NCBI RefSeq assembly: GCF_020966775.1 | Contig: NZ_JAJKFV010000029.1 | Location: 1,605,001-1,669,000, forward strand | Origin: Rhodopirellula halodulae | GTDB lineage: Bacteria > Planctomycetota > Planctomycetia > Pirellulales > Pirellulaceae | Reading direction: 5' to 3' | DNA length: 64,000 bases | Made by a program: the position numbers and the translations under genes | Notes under the pieces: generated by a model | Told to the model about the DNA's origin: nothing | The model's database searches: none | Seen by the model: only the letters and a program-made list of their open reading frames with translations | Part shown: positions 4,690-29,117 of the stretch, piece by piece | How the letters are laid out: each line of letters begins with the position of its first letter | Position numbering within the stretch: position 1 is the stretch's first letter

Positions 4690-4774
4690 TGCCCAGGGCG
4701 GGACTCGAACCCGCACAGCCTTAACGGCCGGGGGATTTTAAGTCCCCTGTGTCTGCCAATTCCACCACCTGGGC
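4690..4774 (-). tRNA. tRNA-Leu (anticodon TAA)
   Basis: Reading the minus strand: acceptor stem GCCCAGG pairs with CCTGGGC, the D-arm is TGGAATTGGCAGACA, and the anticodon arm GGGGACTTAAAATCCCC carries anticodon TAA in the loop. A long class II variable arm follows, then the T-arm with GGTTCGAGTCC. The discriminator base is A at 4690. The CCA end is not encoded. The long variable arm plus TAA anticodon identifies Leu (reads TTA/TTG). Confidence 0.96.
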
Positions 4775-22897: not shown

Positions 22898-23725
22898 TTA
22901 ACGTAAAACCACAAACGCAAGCGCACTGACCAGCAGGGCGAGCACCAAACCCAACGTCACGGTTGCCGCGATGCGTTTGCGGGAACGCTTGGACTTGCTG
23001 GAGTCCAACGGTCCACTGCGTGGAAGGATTTCGGCTCCTTCCCGAGCTTGCGGACTGTCGACCAAGCTTGGGTCGACCAGATGAGCGTTGCCTGGCGCGG
23101 TCAGATCAACTTGCTGAGGCCGATGGACACCATCGCCTCCGCCGCGCATCCCAATGGAACGGAGAATTTCGCCCGCAGGTTTCCAGTCCGGCCAGCCGTC
23201 ACGCCACAGCATGGCTGCGTCTGCGATTCGTCCTTCGGTGATCCACTGCTGCATGGTGGGTCCGTCCGCCGGCCCGTACTGTCCTCCACTCGGCGGACGC
23301 ACGTACCAAATCGCAGTCGAGTCACCCAGAACGCTCTCAACGGTCTGTTCTTGGGGAGACTCATGGGCCGTTTCGGCACCGGCGTTCGTCGATGCATTCG
23401 CGGACGCACGACTTGTTTTTACGCGGGGACGTTCGATGGTGGCGGGCCCGCCTGCCGAGGCAACATGCGATTGAGCGCGAACGGTCTGGTCATCGGATTC
23501 GTGATGAGGTTCGTGATTCGCATCTGAAAGTGACGTTTGCCCGAACTCGCTGTTGACCGCGTGAGCGCCGGACGAGTCTTCTTCAATCGGGTTGGAAAAC
23601 TCTTGGTCGACGGTGGGAATGCGAAAACGAACCGAGCATTCCGGGCAAACGCCCCGCCGGCCAGCCAGTTCCGCTTTGATGTTCAATCGCTTCCCACATG
23701 CATGGCAAGCAAAACGAACGCCCAT
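22898..23725 (-). CDS. Zinc-ribbon and GYF_2 domain membrane protein
   Basis: About 275 residues. N-terminal zinc ribbon C7-x2-C10 ... C27-x2-C30, then a Ser/Ala/Thr-rich linker, a GYF_2 (DUF4339) domain at about 130-180 (IWYVRPPSGGQYGPADGPTMQQWITEGRI..W..GWPDWKPA), a second linker and a C-terminal membrane anchor (VTLGLVLALLVSALAFVVL). GYF domains bind Pro-rich peptides. This architecture is common in planctomycetes with no assigned role. The start at 23725 begins the zinc ribbon directly (MGVRFACHACG). Confidence 0.82.
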   Translation of the reverse strand: MGVRFACHACGKRLNIKAELAGRRGVCPECSVRFRIPTVDQEFSNPIEEDSSGAHAVNSEFGQTSLSDANHEPHHESDDQTVRAQSHVASAGGPATIERPRVKTSRASANASTNAGAETAHESPQEQTVESVLGDSTAIWYVRPPSGGQYGPADGPTMQQWITEGRIADAAMLWRDGWPDWKPAGEILRSIGMRGGGDGVHRPQQVDLTAPGNAHLVDPSLVDSPQAREGAEILPRSGPLDSSKSKRSRKRIAATVTLGLVLALLVSALAFVVLR

Positions 23726-23893
23726 ATCACCGAGACCCAGTAAGAAGAGAAGGATAAAGTGCCGCTCGTGTCTGTCCGACAGCAGGCGGATCTGGTTCAA
23801 CACGAATCGGTTCTGGTCCCAATATAATTCAAACCGAATAGCTCGTGCGAATTCCCCCAGGTGGTGGCTCGCGATCCGAAAGCGGACGAGTGA

Positions 23894-25180
23894 TCAATTC
23901 AGCGGAAGATCGGTGATCACTGCGAAAGTTTTCTTGCCGTTTCGACCGATCCACATGGCGACGGGCTCGTCCCCGCACTGACGGAGTTTCTTTTGAAGCT
24001 TCGCCGGGTCCATGTCGACGCCGCGAATTTTGATGATCTCGGGATAGCTGTTTTGTTTTCGGAAGTACCGACGAAGGGCTCGGTCGTCACAAGATATCTG
24101 ATCACGAATTTTCGCGACGACCGCCAGAGTGTTGGATTGCGAAGTCGAGGCATCCACGTCAGACACCGCCGAGAGTGGTGAATCCGAAGTCAGGAAGCCA
24201 GACGGTTTCCCTAGCACGGCGGCCTCGTGAGCTACGGCAAAGGCGTCCGTCAGCCCCGCGGCACGGACGGCTGCGTCGGGATCGATCATCCATTGTTGGG
24301 GTTTCGAAGCAACCTCAGCTCGAACATCCAATTGATCTGCCGAACCGGAAAACACATTCGGCTCGCCGGATTTCAAAACCACCGCGGAACGTCCTCCCAA
24401 CCAATGGTCGGAGCGTACGTCTTCCACGGAAGATTGAAACGAAAGAGGAATGCACGGAAGCTGACCCCAGATCGCCGTTTGTTCGCGAACGCTGCCCGAC
24501 GACGAAATCCACATTCGATGGCACTCGGATGCAACTGCGTCGTCCAAATCCGTTGCGGGGGCCATCTTCACCAACGCGCCTTTGGATTGGTTGAGCAGCG
24601 TGAACGTTTTGTCCCACGTCGGCATCCATTCTTCAGGACGAACGTGACGCTGACTGCCCGATCGTCGGTCGGGATCGATGTGCAGGTAGTCCGCTCCATC
24701 CAACAAGGTATCGGCGGGAGTGTTTTGTGCATCCAACCAACGTAGTTCGGCAGAAACGTTTGCGGTGTGCAGGTTGGCTCGCGTGAACGACAACACGGAA
24801 GTGTCATAGTCGACGCCAATGGTTTTTCCCCGACGTGCGAGTGCGATGAGATCACCACCGATACCACAGCAGATGTCGGCAACCGTTTCCTCACCGAACC
24901 AAGCAGCCTTGAAATTCGCGACATCGTGAGTTGTTGCTTGTTGAATCGCACGGCGAGTGATCCACCACACCTCGTGTTCGACCATAGGTTTGCCGAGCGT
25001 GGCTTCCGCTCTTGCTTGCAACGACGCGATGTCTTTCAAGATCGCTTTGGTACCGGAGGAGAGTTGTTGCATCGCTGGTGAATGCAGTTTGCCCGCCATG
25101 CAATCTTTCATCGCGTCGTTCAACAACGGCGTGACTTCCAACTCCACGGAGGAATCATGATTGACCGAGGACGAACTCAC
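23894..25180 (-). CDS. THUMP-like domain class I SAM-dependent methyltransferase
   Basis: 428 residues. SAM-binding motif I ADICCGIGGDLIAL (about 101-114), followed by acidic residue in IGVDYD, and the family motif LHIDPDRRSG (~166). The C-terminal ~90 residues (FRKQNSYPEIIKIRGVDMDPAKLQKKLR) match the THUMP-like domain (PF18096), suggesting RNA as substrate. The GTG start at 25180 overlaps the upstream GTPase stop as GTGA, so it belongs to the same operon. Substrate unknown; association with an MnmE-like GTPase makes tRNA plausible. Confidence 0.85.
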   Translation of the reverse strand: MSSSSVNHDSSVELEVTPLLNDAMKDCMAGKLHSPAMQQLSSGTKAILKDIASLQARAEATLGKPMVEHEVWWITRRAIQQATTHDVANFKAAWFGEETVADICCGIGGDLIALARRGKTIGVDYDTSVLSFTRANLHTANVSAELRWLDAQNTPADTLLDGADYLHIDPDRRSGSQRHVRPEEWMPTWDKTFTLLNQSKGALVKMAPATDLDDAVASECHRMWISSSGSVREQTAIWGQLPCIPLSFQSSVEDVRSDHWLGGRSAVVLKSGEPNVFSGSADQLDVRAEVASKPQQWMIDPDAAVRAAGLTDAFAVAHEAAVLGKPSGFLTSDSPLSAVSDVDASTSQSNTLAVVAKIRDQISCDDRALRRYFRKQNSYPEIIKIRGVDMDPAKLQKKLRQCGDEPVAMWIGRNGKKTFAVITDLPLN

Positions 25181-26421
25181 GCAGCTTCCTCCATCAACAA
25201 ACCTTGAAGAAGACGTTTCGCAAACGAGATTGACTGCGAAGGTGAATCCAACGGAAGTCGAGTGAGTTGATTGATCCAGTGAAGCTGCCGCTCGGTCATC
25301 GGGACGGGTTGATCGGATGGCGGTAGTGAAGCTTTCAGGATCGTCCCCATTCGGTTCATCAATTCGGTGATGCCCGATCCTTGCTCTTCCGATGTTGCAA
25401 TCGTTCGGACATCAACGTTGGATGTCGTTTCAGCGTTTCCGTCCAAGTCGGCTTTGTTCAACACTCGTAGGACGTTCGTCTGATTGGAAATACTGAGTGA
25501 TTGTTGGAATTCGTCCAGTTGCTGTTGATTGGACGGTTCGCAAACGATCAGCAAGATATCAGCGGATTGGACCGCCAACGCTGCTCGGCGGATTCCTTCC
25601 CGCTCGATGGACGCCGCGGCATCGCTCAGATGATCGGTTTGGCGTATTCCCGCGGTGTCGCTCAAACGTACAGGGACTCCCGCGATGACTGTGTCGCACT
25701 GCAATACATCTCGCGTTGTTCCCGCGGAGTCGTGTGTGATGCTGCGTCGATAGCCGACGATTTGATTCATCAGGCTGCTCTTTCCGACGTTGGGCGGTCC
25801 CGCCAGAACGATTTGACGAGGCTGAGTCAGCAAAATTCCTTGTGCACTACGTTCGAAAATCGCCGCGGCTTCCTGTTTCAGCTCGATAGCAAGCCCCTGC
25901 AGATTCGCGATTGAGTTTGGCTGCGCATCCTCTTGGTTGAGATCCGAGTTCGTGATCTCGTCGATCCATTTCCGACTCCATGACTCCAAACCGCTGCGAC
26001 GTTGTTGCAACACGATGGATGCTTGTTGATTGGTCACGCAGTGCTGAAGGATTGAATCCGCCTCGGTTTGAATGACGGAACGATCGTTGTGCCACTTTGC
26101 GGGAGTGACTTCCTGCACACCTCGATCGGTAAGCGAACGCAAGATCGCATGAACGGCGGCATCACCTCCGTGGCCATGGATTTCAAAGCAATCGTCACTG
26201 ATCGGCGTTAACACAATGGATTCACCCGGTGAGCTTTTGGAGCCACGCCAGACTCCGTAACGCACGTCACCGGGTTGGCTTGTGACGTTGGACCGAAACG
26301 CGGGAATGAAACAATCTTGCACGCATGAGGCCGCGTTTTTGCCTCGCAGTCCGATCACCGCAACCGCTGAGCGACCTGATCCAGTCATCCGAGTGGCGAT
26401 CGTTTGCTGGTCGGTAATCAT
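25177..26421 (-). CDS. MnmE-like GTPase without the C-terminal Cys motif
   Basis: 414 residues. N-terminal TrmE_N-like part (ATRMTGSGRSAVAVIGLRG, EIHGHGGDAAV) and a TrmE-type G domain: P-loop GPPNVGKSS (208-216), AGTTRD (233-238), DTAG (255-258), NKAD (322-325). True MnmE ends in C(I/V/L)GK, needed for U34 cmnm5 modification; this protein ends RLLQGLLMEEAA. The conserved EFT(R/K)RAFLNGKLD stretch of the helical domain is also not visible. It is ~40 residues shorter than E. coli MnmE. Either a highly diverged MnmE or a paralogue with a new role. Overlaps both neighbours by 4 bp. Confidence 0.8.
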   Translation of the reverse strand: MITDQQTIATRMTGSGRSAVAVIGLRGKNAASCVQDCFIPAFRSNVTSQPGDVRYGVWRGSKSSPGESIVLTPISDDCFEIHGHGGDAAVHAILRSLTDRGVQEVTPAKWHNDRSVIQTEADSILQHCVTNQQASIVLQQRRSGLESWSRKWIDEITNSDLNQEDAQPNSIANLQGLAIELKQEAAAIFERSAQGILLTQPRQIVLAGPPNVGKSSLMNQIVGYRRSITHDSAGTTRDVLQCDTVIAGVPVRLSDTAGIRQTDHLSDAAASIEREGIRRAALAVQSADILLIVCEPSNQQQLDEFQQSLSISNQTNVLRVLNKADLDGNAETTSNVDVRTIATSEEQGSGITELMNRMGTILKASLPPSDQPVPMTERQLHWINQLTRLPLDSPSQSISFAKRLLQGLLMEEAA

Positions 26422-26855
26422 GTCGCAAAATTGGTGGTGGTCTCGTGGGAGGAGGATTCGATCGAAACTTGATGCGGCCAAACCAAGAGCGCGCGTTTCA
26501 CCAAATTCAGATCGGTCCAACGACGGACGAACAGGCGAGCACTCAATCGTTGAAGCAGTGCGAGTTCGGCATCGGACCATTCTCCCGCTGCGATGTAAAG
26601 GCGATGGGGCGCGAGGCTGTTTGGTAGAGCGAGCCAATCGATCAATGGTTGCGGCGAGTGATGGTCACCGGCCCAAAGGATCCATTCGGGGACCACCGGG
26701 TTGGCGGTCCGGTTGCGGTAGCTCCGCATCGGAAGGTCCGACCAATCGTCGAACGACTGGCAAACGAACGAATCGGAGAGAAACGTCGCGACCGCGTCGG
26801 ACCATCTGTCTCGCTCGGGACCAGTGATCCAAATCGAAGGAAGCTGCGAACTCAT
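26418..26855 (-). CDS. Hypothetical protein of the MnmE-like operon
   Basis: 145 residues, no signal peptide. Alternating hydrophobic and helical segments (SIWITGPERDRWSDAVATFL, PEWILWAGDHHSPQPLIDWL, HRLYIAAGEWSDAELALLQRLSA) suggest a small alpha/beta fold, perhaps a degenerate receiver-like or Rossmann-like domain; this is only pattern-based. It overlaps the upstream regulator and the downstream GTPase by ATGA, so it is a real, translated gene. Trp-rich. Function unknown. Confidence 0.7.
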   Translation of the reverse strand: MSSQLPSIWITGPERDRWSDAVATFLSDSFVCQSFDDWSDLPMRSYRNRTANPVVPEWILWAGDHHSPQPLIDWLALPNSLAPHRLYIAAGEWSDAELALLQRLSARLFVRRWTDLNLVKRALLVWPHQVSIESSSHETTTNFAT

Positions 26856-28405
26856 GATTCCAACTTCCGCAATAAGCGAGCACGGCTGATCCCCAATCGG
26901 CGAGCCGCTTCGGCTTTGTTGCCTCCCGACGCATTCATGGCCTTCTCGATCAATTCACGTTCGTACTTCTGAACGGCTTCGTCAAGCGAGCTAATGCGAA
27001 ACTGATGGTCGATATTGTCGCCGTCCGTCGTTGGCTTGCTCGCCTTCTCAAGTGAATTGGGAAGCTGGTAAGAACGGATCGCCAGAGGCAGATGTTCCTT
27101 TCCAATGCGGTCACCCACGACGCGCGCTAAAGCCGATTCCATCGCTTCGGCGAGTTCTTCAAAATTGTCGGGCCACGGATACAGAAGCAAAGCATCCGCC
27201 GCGTCACGTCCAATCCGAGGCAAGTCAGCGGTCTCGAACCGTCGTCGTTTCGCCGGGCGGTTCCGGTGTGCTTCGCGGAGCAACGCCAATGCCATCGCGG
27301 GGATATCCTCACGACGTTCCTTCAGTGCCGGCAACAAGATCGGCATGGTCCGCATCGCGTTGAGAACAGGTTTGGCGATGCCGGTGGTTGCTTGCGGCAT
27401 GCGAGTCAATTCGGCGATTTGCGCGTCGAGTGGATCGTGATCGGAGGACGCTGATGACGAATGAATTTTGCTGGCCGGATCTAACAATCCGATCAGTCGC
27501 AAACGATCTCCAAACACTTCCATCCACTGGGTCAGTTTTAGCTGCGCCTCGTCTGGCATTTCATCCAAACGTTCAACGAGCAACGTGGCTCGAGCACGAT
27601 CGGGTTCACCGTGGTTGAGTGCGTGAATGGCCGGAGCCGCGTAGGCCTCCAACAATTCAGCATCCATCAGTGCACCGTCGACAATGGTCAGTGTCTCGTC
27701 AGCGGCGGAGGCGTCGTGCAGGTGCAACGCCAGTTCCCGACTGCTATGAGTCGTCGGTGCGAACAAGCCGAGATGACATCGGACGGAACTGGCGGCTGCG
27801 ATTCGGCGACGAAGCAATTCAGCCGCGGATGATTCTCCGGTCAGCAAAATTTCAACGGTCCGCCCGACTGCCATTCGATGTTTGTGGAGTTGTTCTTCCA
27901 ACAACGATTGCTGACGCAAACCGGAATCGCCGATCCAGTCAGAAAAAGGAACTTCGGCGTCTCGAAGAAATTTGCCCACACAGCCGAGCGTGAATCCAGT
28001 GGTACCAAGTCGCACCCAGTGTGCGATCTCAACTGGGTCGAGATTGGCGACCGAGGGATGCGAATTTGCTGGGCCGCTCGTGGGCTGAATCCTGCGATCC
28101 GATGACTTCGCGGAAGAGGATCGCACCGGAAACCACCGGCGCGTCGCATAGCCGCGGGCGTCAATCATTGGATCGGGAAGCAATGCTTCGATCCAAGTCT
28201 CAGCGATCTGTTCTAAATCAAGGACTTCGTTTTCATCGGAGCCCGTACCGCCGCGGTCGGACGACAACGTTTGCAACCACTCCGCCATCGTAGGCGAAAC
28301 ATGAACCAGCTCACCCTCAGCGTCGATGATCCACACGCGAGCGGTGGATGCATCGAGCTGCTTGATGAGCGATCGGTTGCGGGGTGATCGATTAGAACGT
28401 GTCAA
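26852..28405 (-). CDS. NtrC-like regulator with PAS-like N terminus, degenerate AAA+ and Fis-type HTH
   Basis: About 517 residues. N-terminal PAS-like segment (TARVWIIDAEGELVHVSPTMAEWL), a central region aligned with sigma-54 activators (LPALKERREDIPAMALALLREA; PWPDNFEELAEAMESALARVV) and a Fis HTH at the end (EKAMNASGGNKAEAARRLGISRARLLRKL). Where Walker A should be, the sequence reads LFAPTTHSSRELALH without GxxGxGK; Walker B is changed to TLLVERLDEMPDEAQ; no GAFTGA is seen. It likely binds DNA or protein without ATP-driven sigma-54 remodelling. Start uncertain: TTG at 28405 overlaps the secreted-protein gene by 14 bp. Confidence 0.75.
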   Translation of the reverse strand: MTRSNRSPRNRSLIKQLDASTARVWIIDAEGELVHVSPTMAEWLQTLSSDRGGTGSDENEVLDLEQIAETWIEALLPDPMIDARGYATRRWFPVRSSSAKSSDRRIQPTSGPANSHPSVANLDPVEIAHWVRLGTTGFTLGCVGKFLRDAEVPFSDWIGDSGLRQQSLLEEQLHKHRMAVGRTVEILLTGESSAAELLRRRIAAASSVRCHLGLFAPTTHSSRELALHLHDASAADETLTIVDGALMDAELLEAYAAPAIHALNHGEPDRARATLLVERLDEMPDEAQLKLTQWMEVFGDRLRLIGLLDPASKIHSSSASSDHDPLDAQIAELTRMPQATTGIAKPVLNAMRTMPILLPALKERREDIPAMALALLREAHRNRPAKRRRFETADLPRIGRDAADALLLYPWPDNFEELAEAMESALARVVGDRIGKEHLPLAIRSYQLPNSLEKASKPTTDGDNIDHQFRISSLDEAVQKYERELIEKAMNASGGNKAEAARRLGISRARLLRKLES

Positions 28406-28799
28406 GAATGAAGTGGTGGCCTTTGTGGAAGCGGCGATTGCTTGGGTAGTAGTTGTGCCACTGCTTATTGTAGACAGGAATTCGCATTTCCGTCGGGTAG
28501 CGGTGGTACAGGCTGTCGCTGCTTTTGTAGTAATCCTGGCCCCAGAAGTTTTGGGGGTAGTAAACGTAGGGGTAGTGATACATCCGGTTCCAATCGGTGT
28601 TGGCGGCGGACGAACCCCACGATTGGCCATAGGCACGTGGTTGTTGGTATCCCATTTGCCCTGCTGCGTTGGGAAGCGTGCCGGCTCCCATGGCAACGGG
28701 AGCAGCGTAGCCTTGTGCGGAAGCTTCGGGTGCGTTGCCGGCCAAGCCGACGATGAAGACGCCCGCCATGGCGGCCAAAAGAGTTGCGCGTTGATACAT
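28392..28799 (-). CDS. Small secreted Tyr-rich protein
   Basis: About 135 residues. Signal peptide MYQRATLLAAMAGVFIVGLAGNAPEASA, then a mature part rich in Tyr, Trp, His, Asn and Gly (WNRMYHYPYVYYPQNFWGQDYYKSSDSLYHRYP, QWHNYYPSNRRFHKGHHF). No Cys. Composition suggests an extracellular or envelope structural protein. ATG 28799 fits the signal peptide; the frame continues upstream. It precedes the NtrC-like gene on the same strand with a small overlap. Confidence 0.75.
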   Translation of the reverse strand: MYQRATLLAAMAGVFIVGLAGNAPEASAQGYAAPVAMGAGTLPNAAGQMGYQQPRAYGQSWGSSAANTDWNRMYHYPYVYYPQNFWGQDYYKSSDSLYHRYPTEMRIPVYNKQWHNYYPSNRRFHKGHHFILDTF

Positions 28800-29117
28800 T
28801 CCGACATTCCCCCCCCGGGTATGAATCGCTTTGAGGCGATGTTTTGATCGCTGGTAGTCCAACGTGGTGCTGTCCACGCTGGTTTCATCGGAGTTATCGG
28901 CACAACCCGTTGATTGGGATGAGTTGTTTCGTTTCCGTTTATTGATTCAGGTGATAGAATTCCTGAAAACGATGCCGCAGCGTCGTCGTAGTCGGCCTGA
29001 GCAACTGTCCTGCCACGGGCGACGACGTACATCCCAAATGGCGTTTGAACCGCCAGCATCTGTTTTCGCGTCTTCGAACGCTCCCGCCCCGATCTCACAC
29101 CTCAACGTCGAAAAATC
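28800..29117. other. 318-bp divergent intergenic region
   Basis: Between two divergent secreted-protein genes. It contains a run of eight C (about 28809-28816), a small hairpin ATCGC/GCGAT near 28826 and CGTGG/CCACG at 28863-28878. Promoters for both sides are expected but I cannot assign them. Confidence 0.4.

Follow-up and report, generated by a model that had tools for sequence, protein, structure and literature searches.

Rhodopirellula halodulae, a member of the Planctomycetota, carries a minus-strand gene whose product, P0003, resembles the tRNA-modification GTPase MnmE yet lacks the C-terminal swivel helix of that protein. The gene lies in a window of 64,000 nucleotides (nt), the whole stretch of DNA analyzed (assembly GCF_020966775.1, contig NZ_JAJKFV010000029.1, positions 1,605,001 to 1,669,000), and it overlaps its neighbors in a four-gene cluster. 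The locus raises the question of what such a protein does, and whether the genes around it share its pathway. P0003 most likely works as part of MnmE, and alone it fails the defining features of that enzyme. It is probably the GTPase subunit, here called MnmE2, of an MnmE that has been split into a heterodimer in most of the sampled Planctomycetota. The gene and its key positions in the window are:

25177..26421, minus strand: mnmE2 (P0003), MnmE paralogue of 414 amino acids (aa) with an N-domain and a complete G domain, without the C-terminal swivel helix and FCxGK
26170..26172, minus strand: His84 codon of P0003, aligned with E. coli H84, whose structural role is taken from PMC12397908
25777..25800, minus strand: P-loop GPPNVGKS of P0003, residues 208-215, including the K+-site Asn
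25603..25605, minus strand: Glu273 codon of P0003, aligned with the catalytic E282 of E. coli, whose function is taken from PMC3695501

Two folate sites are located in the N-domain dimer interface of MnmE (PMC2749940). In Escherichia coli MnmE, the K454 site is composed of F73, R23, I129, and I133 from its own subunit and of G18 and H84 from the adjacent subunit (PMC12397908). Small-angle X-ray scattering work earlier proposed an asymmetric MnmE-MnmG complex (PMC4027165), and cryo-electron microscopy (cryo-EM) of the E. coli complex in 2025 found the homodimer to be asymmetric on MnmG, with the swivel helix of only one subunit used (PMC12397908). Deletion of residues 436-454 decreases the affinity of E. 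coli MnmE for MnmG more than tenfold (PMC12397908). In the G domain, the E282A variant has a kcat of 0.30 vs. 11.39 and a tRNA modification of 0%, while E282D is fully active; tRNA modification is 0% for G285A and 51% for R275A (PMC3695501).

P0003 scores far below the cut-offs of the MnmE models: TIGR00450 gives 107.2 bits vs. a cut-off of 252.6, and NF003661 gives 158.6 vs. 380. That it could be the sole MnmE of its genome was ruled out by a second MnmE gene at C11:244801-246138, whose product, MnmE1, ends in FCIGK and scores 243.7 of 252.6 bits for TIGR00450. This second gene, with losses complementary to those of P0003, is the main point missed by the original prediction, which had suggested a dedicated RNA-modification pathway for the four genes of the cluster. 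A degraded MnmE pseudogene was likewise ruled out, since the P0003 orthologue is intact in 60/60 genomes of the relatives set (a count that includes R. halodulae) and its G domain and H84 are conserved; MnmE2 is also widespread in the phylum. The MnmE2 profile separates the two paralogues, with scores of 354-499 bits for the orthologues vs. 107-167 bits for MnmE1. FC(V/I/L)GK is absent from the C-terminus of every MnmE2 in the relatives set (0/60) and in the wider phylum (0/47). MnmE1 ends in CxGK in 29/29 sequences of the order (L110, for which the filter left no open reading frame (ORF), was dropped from the original 30), and FCxGK is present in all 60 phylum MnmE1 sequences picked on other grounds, the other 30 of 90 having been selected, like the 77 generic MnmE used for comparison, by having this motif.

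P0003 shares with the E. coli-type MnmE/TrmE homodimer its N-domain, a G domain with the K+-site Asn, GTTRD, DTAG, and an E282 equivalent, and H84, but differs in having no FCxGK or swivel helix, no cis (own-subunit) folate residues, and no MnmG-contact loop. At the level of sequence, the signature of a K+-dependent G domain is complete (N226, GKS, GTTRD, DTAG, and E282). MnmE1 has a common ancestry with P0003 and a G domain with an intact P-loop. In contrast to P0003, it keeps FCIGK and the cis residues and lacks H84, R275, E282, and G285. As the original prediction had anticipated, standard MnmE activity would not be expected of P0003. An AlphaFold2 model of P0003 from a 34-sequence alignment (predicted local distance difference test (pLDDT) 82.8) has MnmE chains as all ten of its best PDB matches and is nearer to 9hip chain A (template-modeling (TM) score 0.57) than to chain B (0.37), though the predicted conformation is no independent evidence, as the alignment consists mostly of ordinary MnmE. 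Two mnmE genes also occur in the planctomycete Tuwongella immobilis, in which both MnmE paralogues were in the S3 fraction together with MnmG (PMC8567305). The passage on them offers neither a residue analysis nor mention of a missing C-terminus, and it does not suggest a heterodimer (PMC8567305); no proposal of a heterodimeric MnmE was found in the one open-licence library searched.

Residues were compared in E. coli numbering, transferred via a Proteus sequence (offset 5), in an alignment of 77 ordinary bacterial (generic) MnmE with 29 MnmE1 and 60 MnmE2 of the order. To these were added 90 MnmE1 and 47 MnmE2 from the phylum sample, and 21 more distant ("wide") MnmE2. In all counts given here, the terms order, family, and genus follow the labels by which the search tool ranks kinship. 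Phylum MnmE1 residue counts refer to 88 sequences, excluding two complete genes (G085 and G110), and the 21 wide MnmE2 omit G087, G132, G207, L475, and two control ORFs and include G133, though its profile match begins at position 82. MnmE1 keeps R23, F73, I129, I133, F450, C451, K454, and the MnmG-contact residue D175, nearly all of which are lost in MnmE2. Thus R23 is present in 76/77 generic sequences, in 29/29 (order) and 85/88 (phylum) MnmE1, and in 5/60 (order) and 11/47 (phylum) MnmE2. In the same sequence of groups, the counts are 77/77, 29/29, 75/88, 1/60, and 12/47 for F73 (F or Y), 77/77, 29/29, 86/88, 2/60, and 2/47 for K454, and 76/77, 29/29, 87/88, 1/60, and 1/47 for D175. P0003 itself has G, P, D, and Q at the cis folate positions R23, F73, I129, and I133.

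The opposite pattern is found for the residues that the adjacent subunit contributes. H84, present in 77/77 generic MnmE, is found in 0/29 (order) and 1/88 (phylum) MnmE1 and in 60/60 (order), 46/47 (phylum), and 20/21 (wide) MnmE2; for G18 (G or A) the corresponding counts are 74/77, 6/29, 21/88, 60/60, 46/47, and 20/21. Among 45 diverse MnmE2 (set A2), no residue outside the G domain is invariant except H84. Residues of GTP hydrolysis are also lost from MnmE1 of the order. E282 is present in 77/77 generic MnmE and 2/29 MnmE1, and in 60/60 MnmE2 of the order, 42/47 of the phylum, and 9/21 of the wide set. Among generic MnmE, order MnmE1, and order MnmE2, G285 occurs in 76/77, 0/29, and 59/60 and R275 in 73/77, 0/29, and 55/60, while N335 occurs in 0/29 MnmE1 vs. 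49/60 MnmE2 of the order.

MnmE1 keeps the residues that a subunit gives to its own K454 site and MnmE2 those that it gives to the site of its neighbor, so that a complete site would be regained only in a mixed dimer. It is proposed that MnmE1 provides the own-subunit folate residues and the swivel helix with FCxGK and contacts MnmG. MnmE2 would supply H84 across the dimer interface, giving one complete folate/K454 site, and would supply GTP hydrolysis via E282, in the window's order almost alone. Together with MnmG, the MnmE1:MnmE2 dimer would then produce wobble uridines of the 5-carboxymethylaminomethyluridine (cmnm5U) type. The pair would in this way fix in the genes an asymmetry that the E. 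coli homodimer shows only transiently. For most of the phylum, we lean toward an obligate heterodimer of an MnmG-binding catalytic subunit and a GTPase subunit donating one residue in trans. Each dimer would then have a single folate site and, in the order of the window, practically a single functional GTPase site.

MnmE2 is monophyletic (88/88) both in the full tree and in the tree built without the diagnostic columns, and 80/88 group together in a tree of the N-domain only. MnmE1 holds together as a single group in the full tree and in that of the N-domain, and does not in the tree without diagnostic columns. Among 199 genomes of the phylum, 132 gave an MnmE-family match at 1e-40, and MnmE1 was read from 90 of the 199, chosen mostly for matches reaching the C-terminus. 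H84 is absent from MnmE1 in 87/90 genomes, and 83 of these 87 contain an MnmE2 candidate, of which 56 were read and are without CxGK and 27 were judged by a separate profile match only. Outside the order, MnmE2 was assigned by the C-terminus and the position of the match; assignment of non-Pirellulales profile A1 matches by score only was rejected, generic MnmE having reached 270 bits. A wider scan used a P-loop pattern and was filled by ordinary MnmE, and the MnmE2 survey is thus confined to the phylum. Mariniblastus (Pirellulales, Planctomycetota) was the only planctomycete with MnmE2 among 80 named loci. As a separate observation, the MnmE of bacterium GB_MAG SS3 (L241:3536-4921) scores as ordinary MnmE yet is without the final CxGK.

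H84 is present in the MnmE of three genomes. One of them, G075, has MnmE2, and no MnmE2 was found in G085 (85% complete) or G110 (84%), genomes of one family whose MnmE has every checked residue and groups with ordinary bacterial MnmE in the tree:

G085:C100:62528-63844 (L315): ordinary-type MnmE
G110:C31:3269-4585 (L316): ordinary-type MnmE

A complete gene possibly replaced the MnmE1/MnmE2 pair in these two genomes, perhaps horizontally; the pattern may also possibly come from contamination or incomplete assemblies. The partner protein MnmG is normal, exceeding the cut-off in 19/20 genomes (18 of them have a single full match, and G012 has two partial ones); in G040, the remaining genome of the 20 searched, it was not found.

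Several observations weigh against the split-enzyme interpretation. The two genes are not neighbors in their own genome. No MnmE2 was found in 4/87 H84-less genomes, namely G165 (99% complete), G087 and G207 (90%), and G132 (79%), and G075 has H84 in MnmE1 alongside MnmE2. For 12 of the genomes from which an MnmE2 was read, the set contains no MnmE1. The co-occurrence gives a Fisher p of only 0.011, or 0.022 on read genomes, and both values ignore phylogeny; both paralogues derive from old events, so that the counts reflect conservation over a long time rather than independent origins. Position 82, two residues upstream of the lost H84, is occupied by His in 29/29 (order) and 68/88 (phylum) MnmE1, compared with 12/77 generic MnmE and 51/60 (order) and 13/47 (phylum) MnmE2, and this His may stand in for H84 in part. 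Position 282 is E in 32/90 and D in 16/90 MnmE1 outside the window's order, so that the predicted loss of GTPase function in MnmE1 is only partial there. Conversely, MnmE2 is without E282 in 5/47 (phylum) and 12/21 (wide) sequences and without G285 in 17/47, and a tree of the G domain only mixes MnmE1 and MnmE2.

The partial loss of GTPase residues bears on whether MnmE2 is instead an accessory protein, acting on MnmE1/MnmG as a regulator or GTPase activator and tuning modification without being an obligate subunit. MnmE1 of other classes has E282 or D in 48/90 and so may hydrolyze GTP itself, and a few genomes have no MnmE2 found; this alternative is nonetheless quite unlikely, as H84 is lost from MnmE1 in 87/90 genomes, including those that keep E282. 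It is also conceivable, if rather unlikely, that MnmE2 is a neofunctionalized homodimeric GTPase linked, for example, to ribosome assembly or coenzyme A metabolism, with H84 kept for its own fold or dimer. The complete G domain would fit such a role, as would the placement of coaX directly upstream of mnmE2 in 28/59 order-level loci and 11/20 from elsewhere in the phylum, with obg and rpmA beyond in about 20. However, this explanation does not account for the specific loss from MnmE1 of the trans residues and, within this order, of the GTPase residues on which E. coli MnmE depends, or for the lack of a detected MnmE2 where MnmE is complete.

How GTP hydrolysis by MnmE drives distant chemistry, and why a symmetric dimer engages MnmG with only one of its subunits, are questions left open in the cryo-EM and kinetic papers. 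If MnmE is split in planctomycetes, the two subunits of such a natural heterodimer could be mutated one at a time, which is impossible in a homodimer. The plain annotation "MnmE" would be half right for either planctomycete gene. The pair would also exemplify complementary loss in an enzyme that is conserved as far as human mitochondria (GTPBP3).

The remaining genes of the cluster are:

26852..28405, minus strand: P0001, NtrC-like protein that has a Fis helix-turn-helix (HTH) and an AAA lid but has lost Walker A and GAFTGA; the start codon is tentative
26418..26855, minus strand: P0002, 145 aa, possible degenerate receiver-like partner of P0001 (weak basis)
23894..25180, minus strand: P0004, class I methyltransferase with a Thump_like C-terminus, adjoining mnmE2 in 13/13 genus members only

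The four open frames lie on the minus strand at 23894-28405 in the order P0001-P0002-P0003-P0004, and the three 4-bp overlaps of the original prediction were confirmed by direct reading in the window as ATGA at 26852-26855 (P0001-P0002), ATGA at 26418-26421 (P0002-P0003), and GTGA at 25177-25180 (P0003-P0004). Two of the three are conserved outside this species: the P0001-P0002 overlap of 4 nt is kept in 6/6 loci, and P0003 and P0004 overlap by 4 or 1 nt in 12/13 loci of the genus. The middle one is not, occurring in 1/6 loci, that of the window; in the remaining five loci, the closest ATG comes 22 nt past the stop. The P0001 start (TTG, 28405) is uncertain, as the end of a small preceding ORF covers it and the reading frame stays open beyond it in the upstream direction. 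That ORF (28392-28877 of the window, minus strand, 161 aa) is without family matches, and its 3′ end overlaps the tentative TTG.

The history of the neighborhood was traced by comparing 59 loci around the P0003 orthologue. mnmE2 itself is present in 60/60 genomes, but the four-gene order is confined to 6/13 genus members, window included. In the other 7/13, mnmE2 is preceded by genes for a 4Fe-4S protein and a HAD hydrolase, and the order is not conserved beyond the genus, an outcome that the original prediction had itself named as a refutation. P0003 and P0004 are adjacent in 13/13 genus members. Within the stretch compared, P0004 is beside mnmE2 in 0/47 order-level loci outside the genus, and a P0004 homologue is present somewhere in the genome in 53/60 genomes. 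Outside the genus, coaX (type III pantothenate kinase) is upstream of mnmE2 in 28/47 order loci (obg is present in 22 and rpmA in 21) and also in 11/20 loci from elsewhere in the phylum. Because coaX is upstream across both order and phylum, coaX-mnmE2 (after rpmA-obg) looks like the ancestral arrangement and the four-gene operon like a local rearrangement. The methyltransferase gene would have joined mnmE2 in the genus and the P0001-P0002 pair in one sub-clade, and the four-gene operon is a recent, lineage-specific patchwork. Where coaX is directly upstream (e.g., L055, L058, L215, and L220), mnmE2 starts with a 4- or 1-nt overlap in 18/39 loci. A protein of about 357 aa without Pfam matches precedes rpmA-obg-coaX-mnmE2 in 17 loci (e.g., L055:9468-10580).

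A conserved four-gene pathway was rejected on this comparison, and one dedicated RNA-modification pathway for the four genes is accordingly very improbable. The 4-nt overlaps in the cluster and the coupling of P0003 and P0004 in 12/13 genus members speak for it. The neighborhood comparison has already largely refuted it: in addition to the limited spread of the order, convincing P0002-type scores are confined to the same six genus members, and pairs resembling P0001-P0002 are also present elsewhere, at loci that have no mnmE2.

The composition of the cluster was otherwise described correctly by the original prediction, which had listed a DNA-binding-type protein without an ATPase site, an unrecognized protein, and two proteins resembling RNA-modification enzymes, here the MnmE-like P0003 and the methyltransferase P0004. 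P0001 resembles NtrC-type activators in its Fis-type HTH (PF02954, 1e-11, 44.8 bits vs. a cut-off of 22) and AAA lid (PF25601, 2e-9), but differs from them in having neither Walker A nor GAFTGA, motifs that are also absent in 14/14 readable homologues (a count that omits L207 and L210). P0001 homologues of other genus members lie at other loci. The ORF following the P0001 homologue resembles P0002 in 5/8 readable loci (E 2.6e-8 to 6.2e-4; 308 ORFs searched), and in L212-L214 it scores no P0002 match, the kinship there being positional only. In L205, L206, L208, L209, L211, and L212, a pseudo-activator of the P0001 type precedes a small ORF that resembles P0002 or has a similar placement; in L212 the pair is followed by an Mrp-type Fe-S ATPase, and in L206 a lipoyl synthase lies further on.

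For P0002, the best Pfam E value is 0.31 and NCBIfam gives no match, and neither P0002 nor nine homologues or candidates have a receiver match in Pfam. The model built for P0002 from its sequence alone shows a (beta-alpha)5 topology (pLDDT 62), and its Foldseek search places several receivers among the top matches, none at E <= 0.001. P0002 is possibly a degenerate receiver partner of P0001. In P0004, the methyltransferase domain PF13649 scores 27.5 bits vs. a cut-off of 27. P0004 shares with the PG_1098-type putative methyltransferase (PDB 3ll7) a weak similarity over the full domain (E 0.0017) and a Thump_like end, but differs in that its Thump_like match (PF18096) is just under the gathering score (24.5 vs. 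26 bits). No paper on THUMP-like proteins was found in the open-licence library searched, and a plasmid search gave no match.

Just downstream of the cluster, at 22898-23803 of the window (minus strand), lies a gene for a GYF_2 domain protein with a zinc-ribbon-like N-terminus. The window also contains tRNA-Leu(UAA) at 4690-4774 (minus strand), an isoacceptor among the listed MnmE/GidA substrates (PMC2749940), and its presence in the same window as mnmE2 is probably a coincidence.

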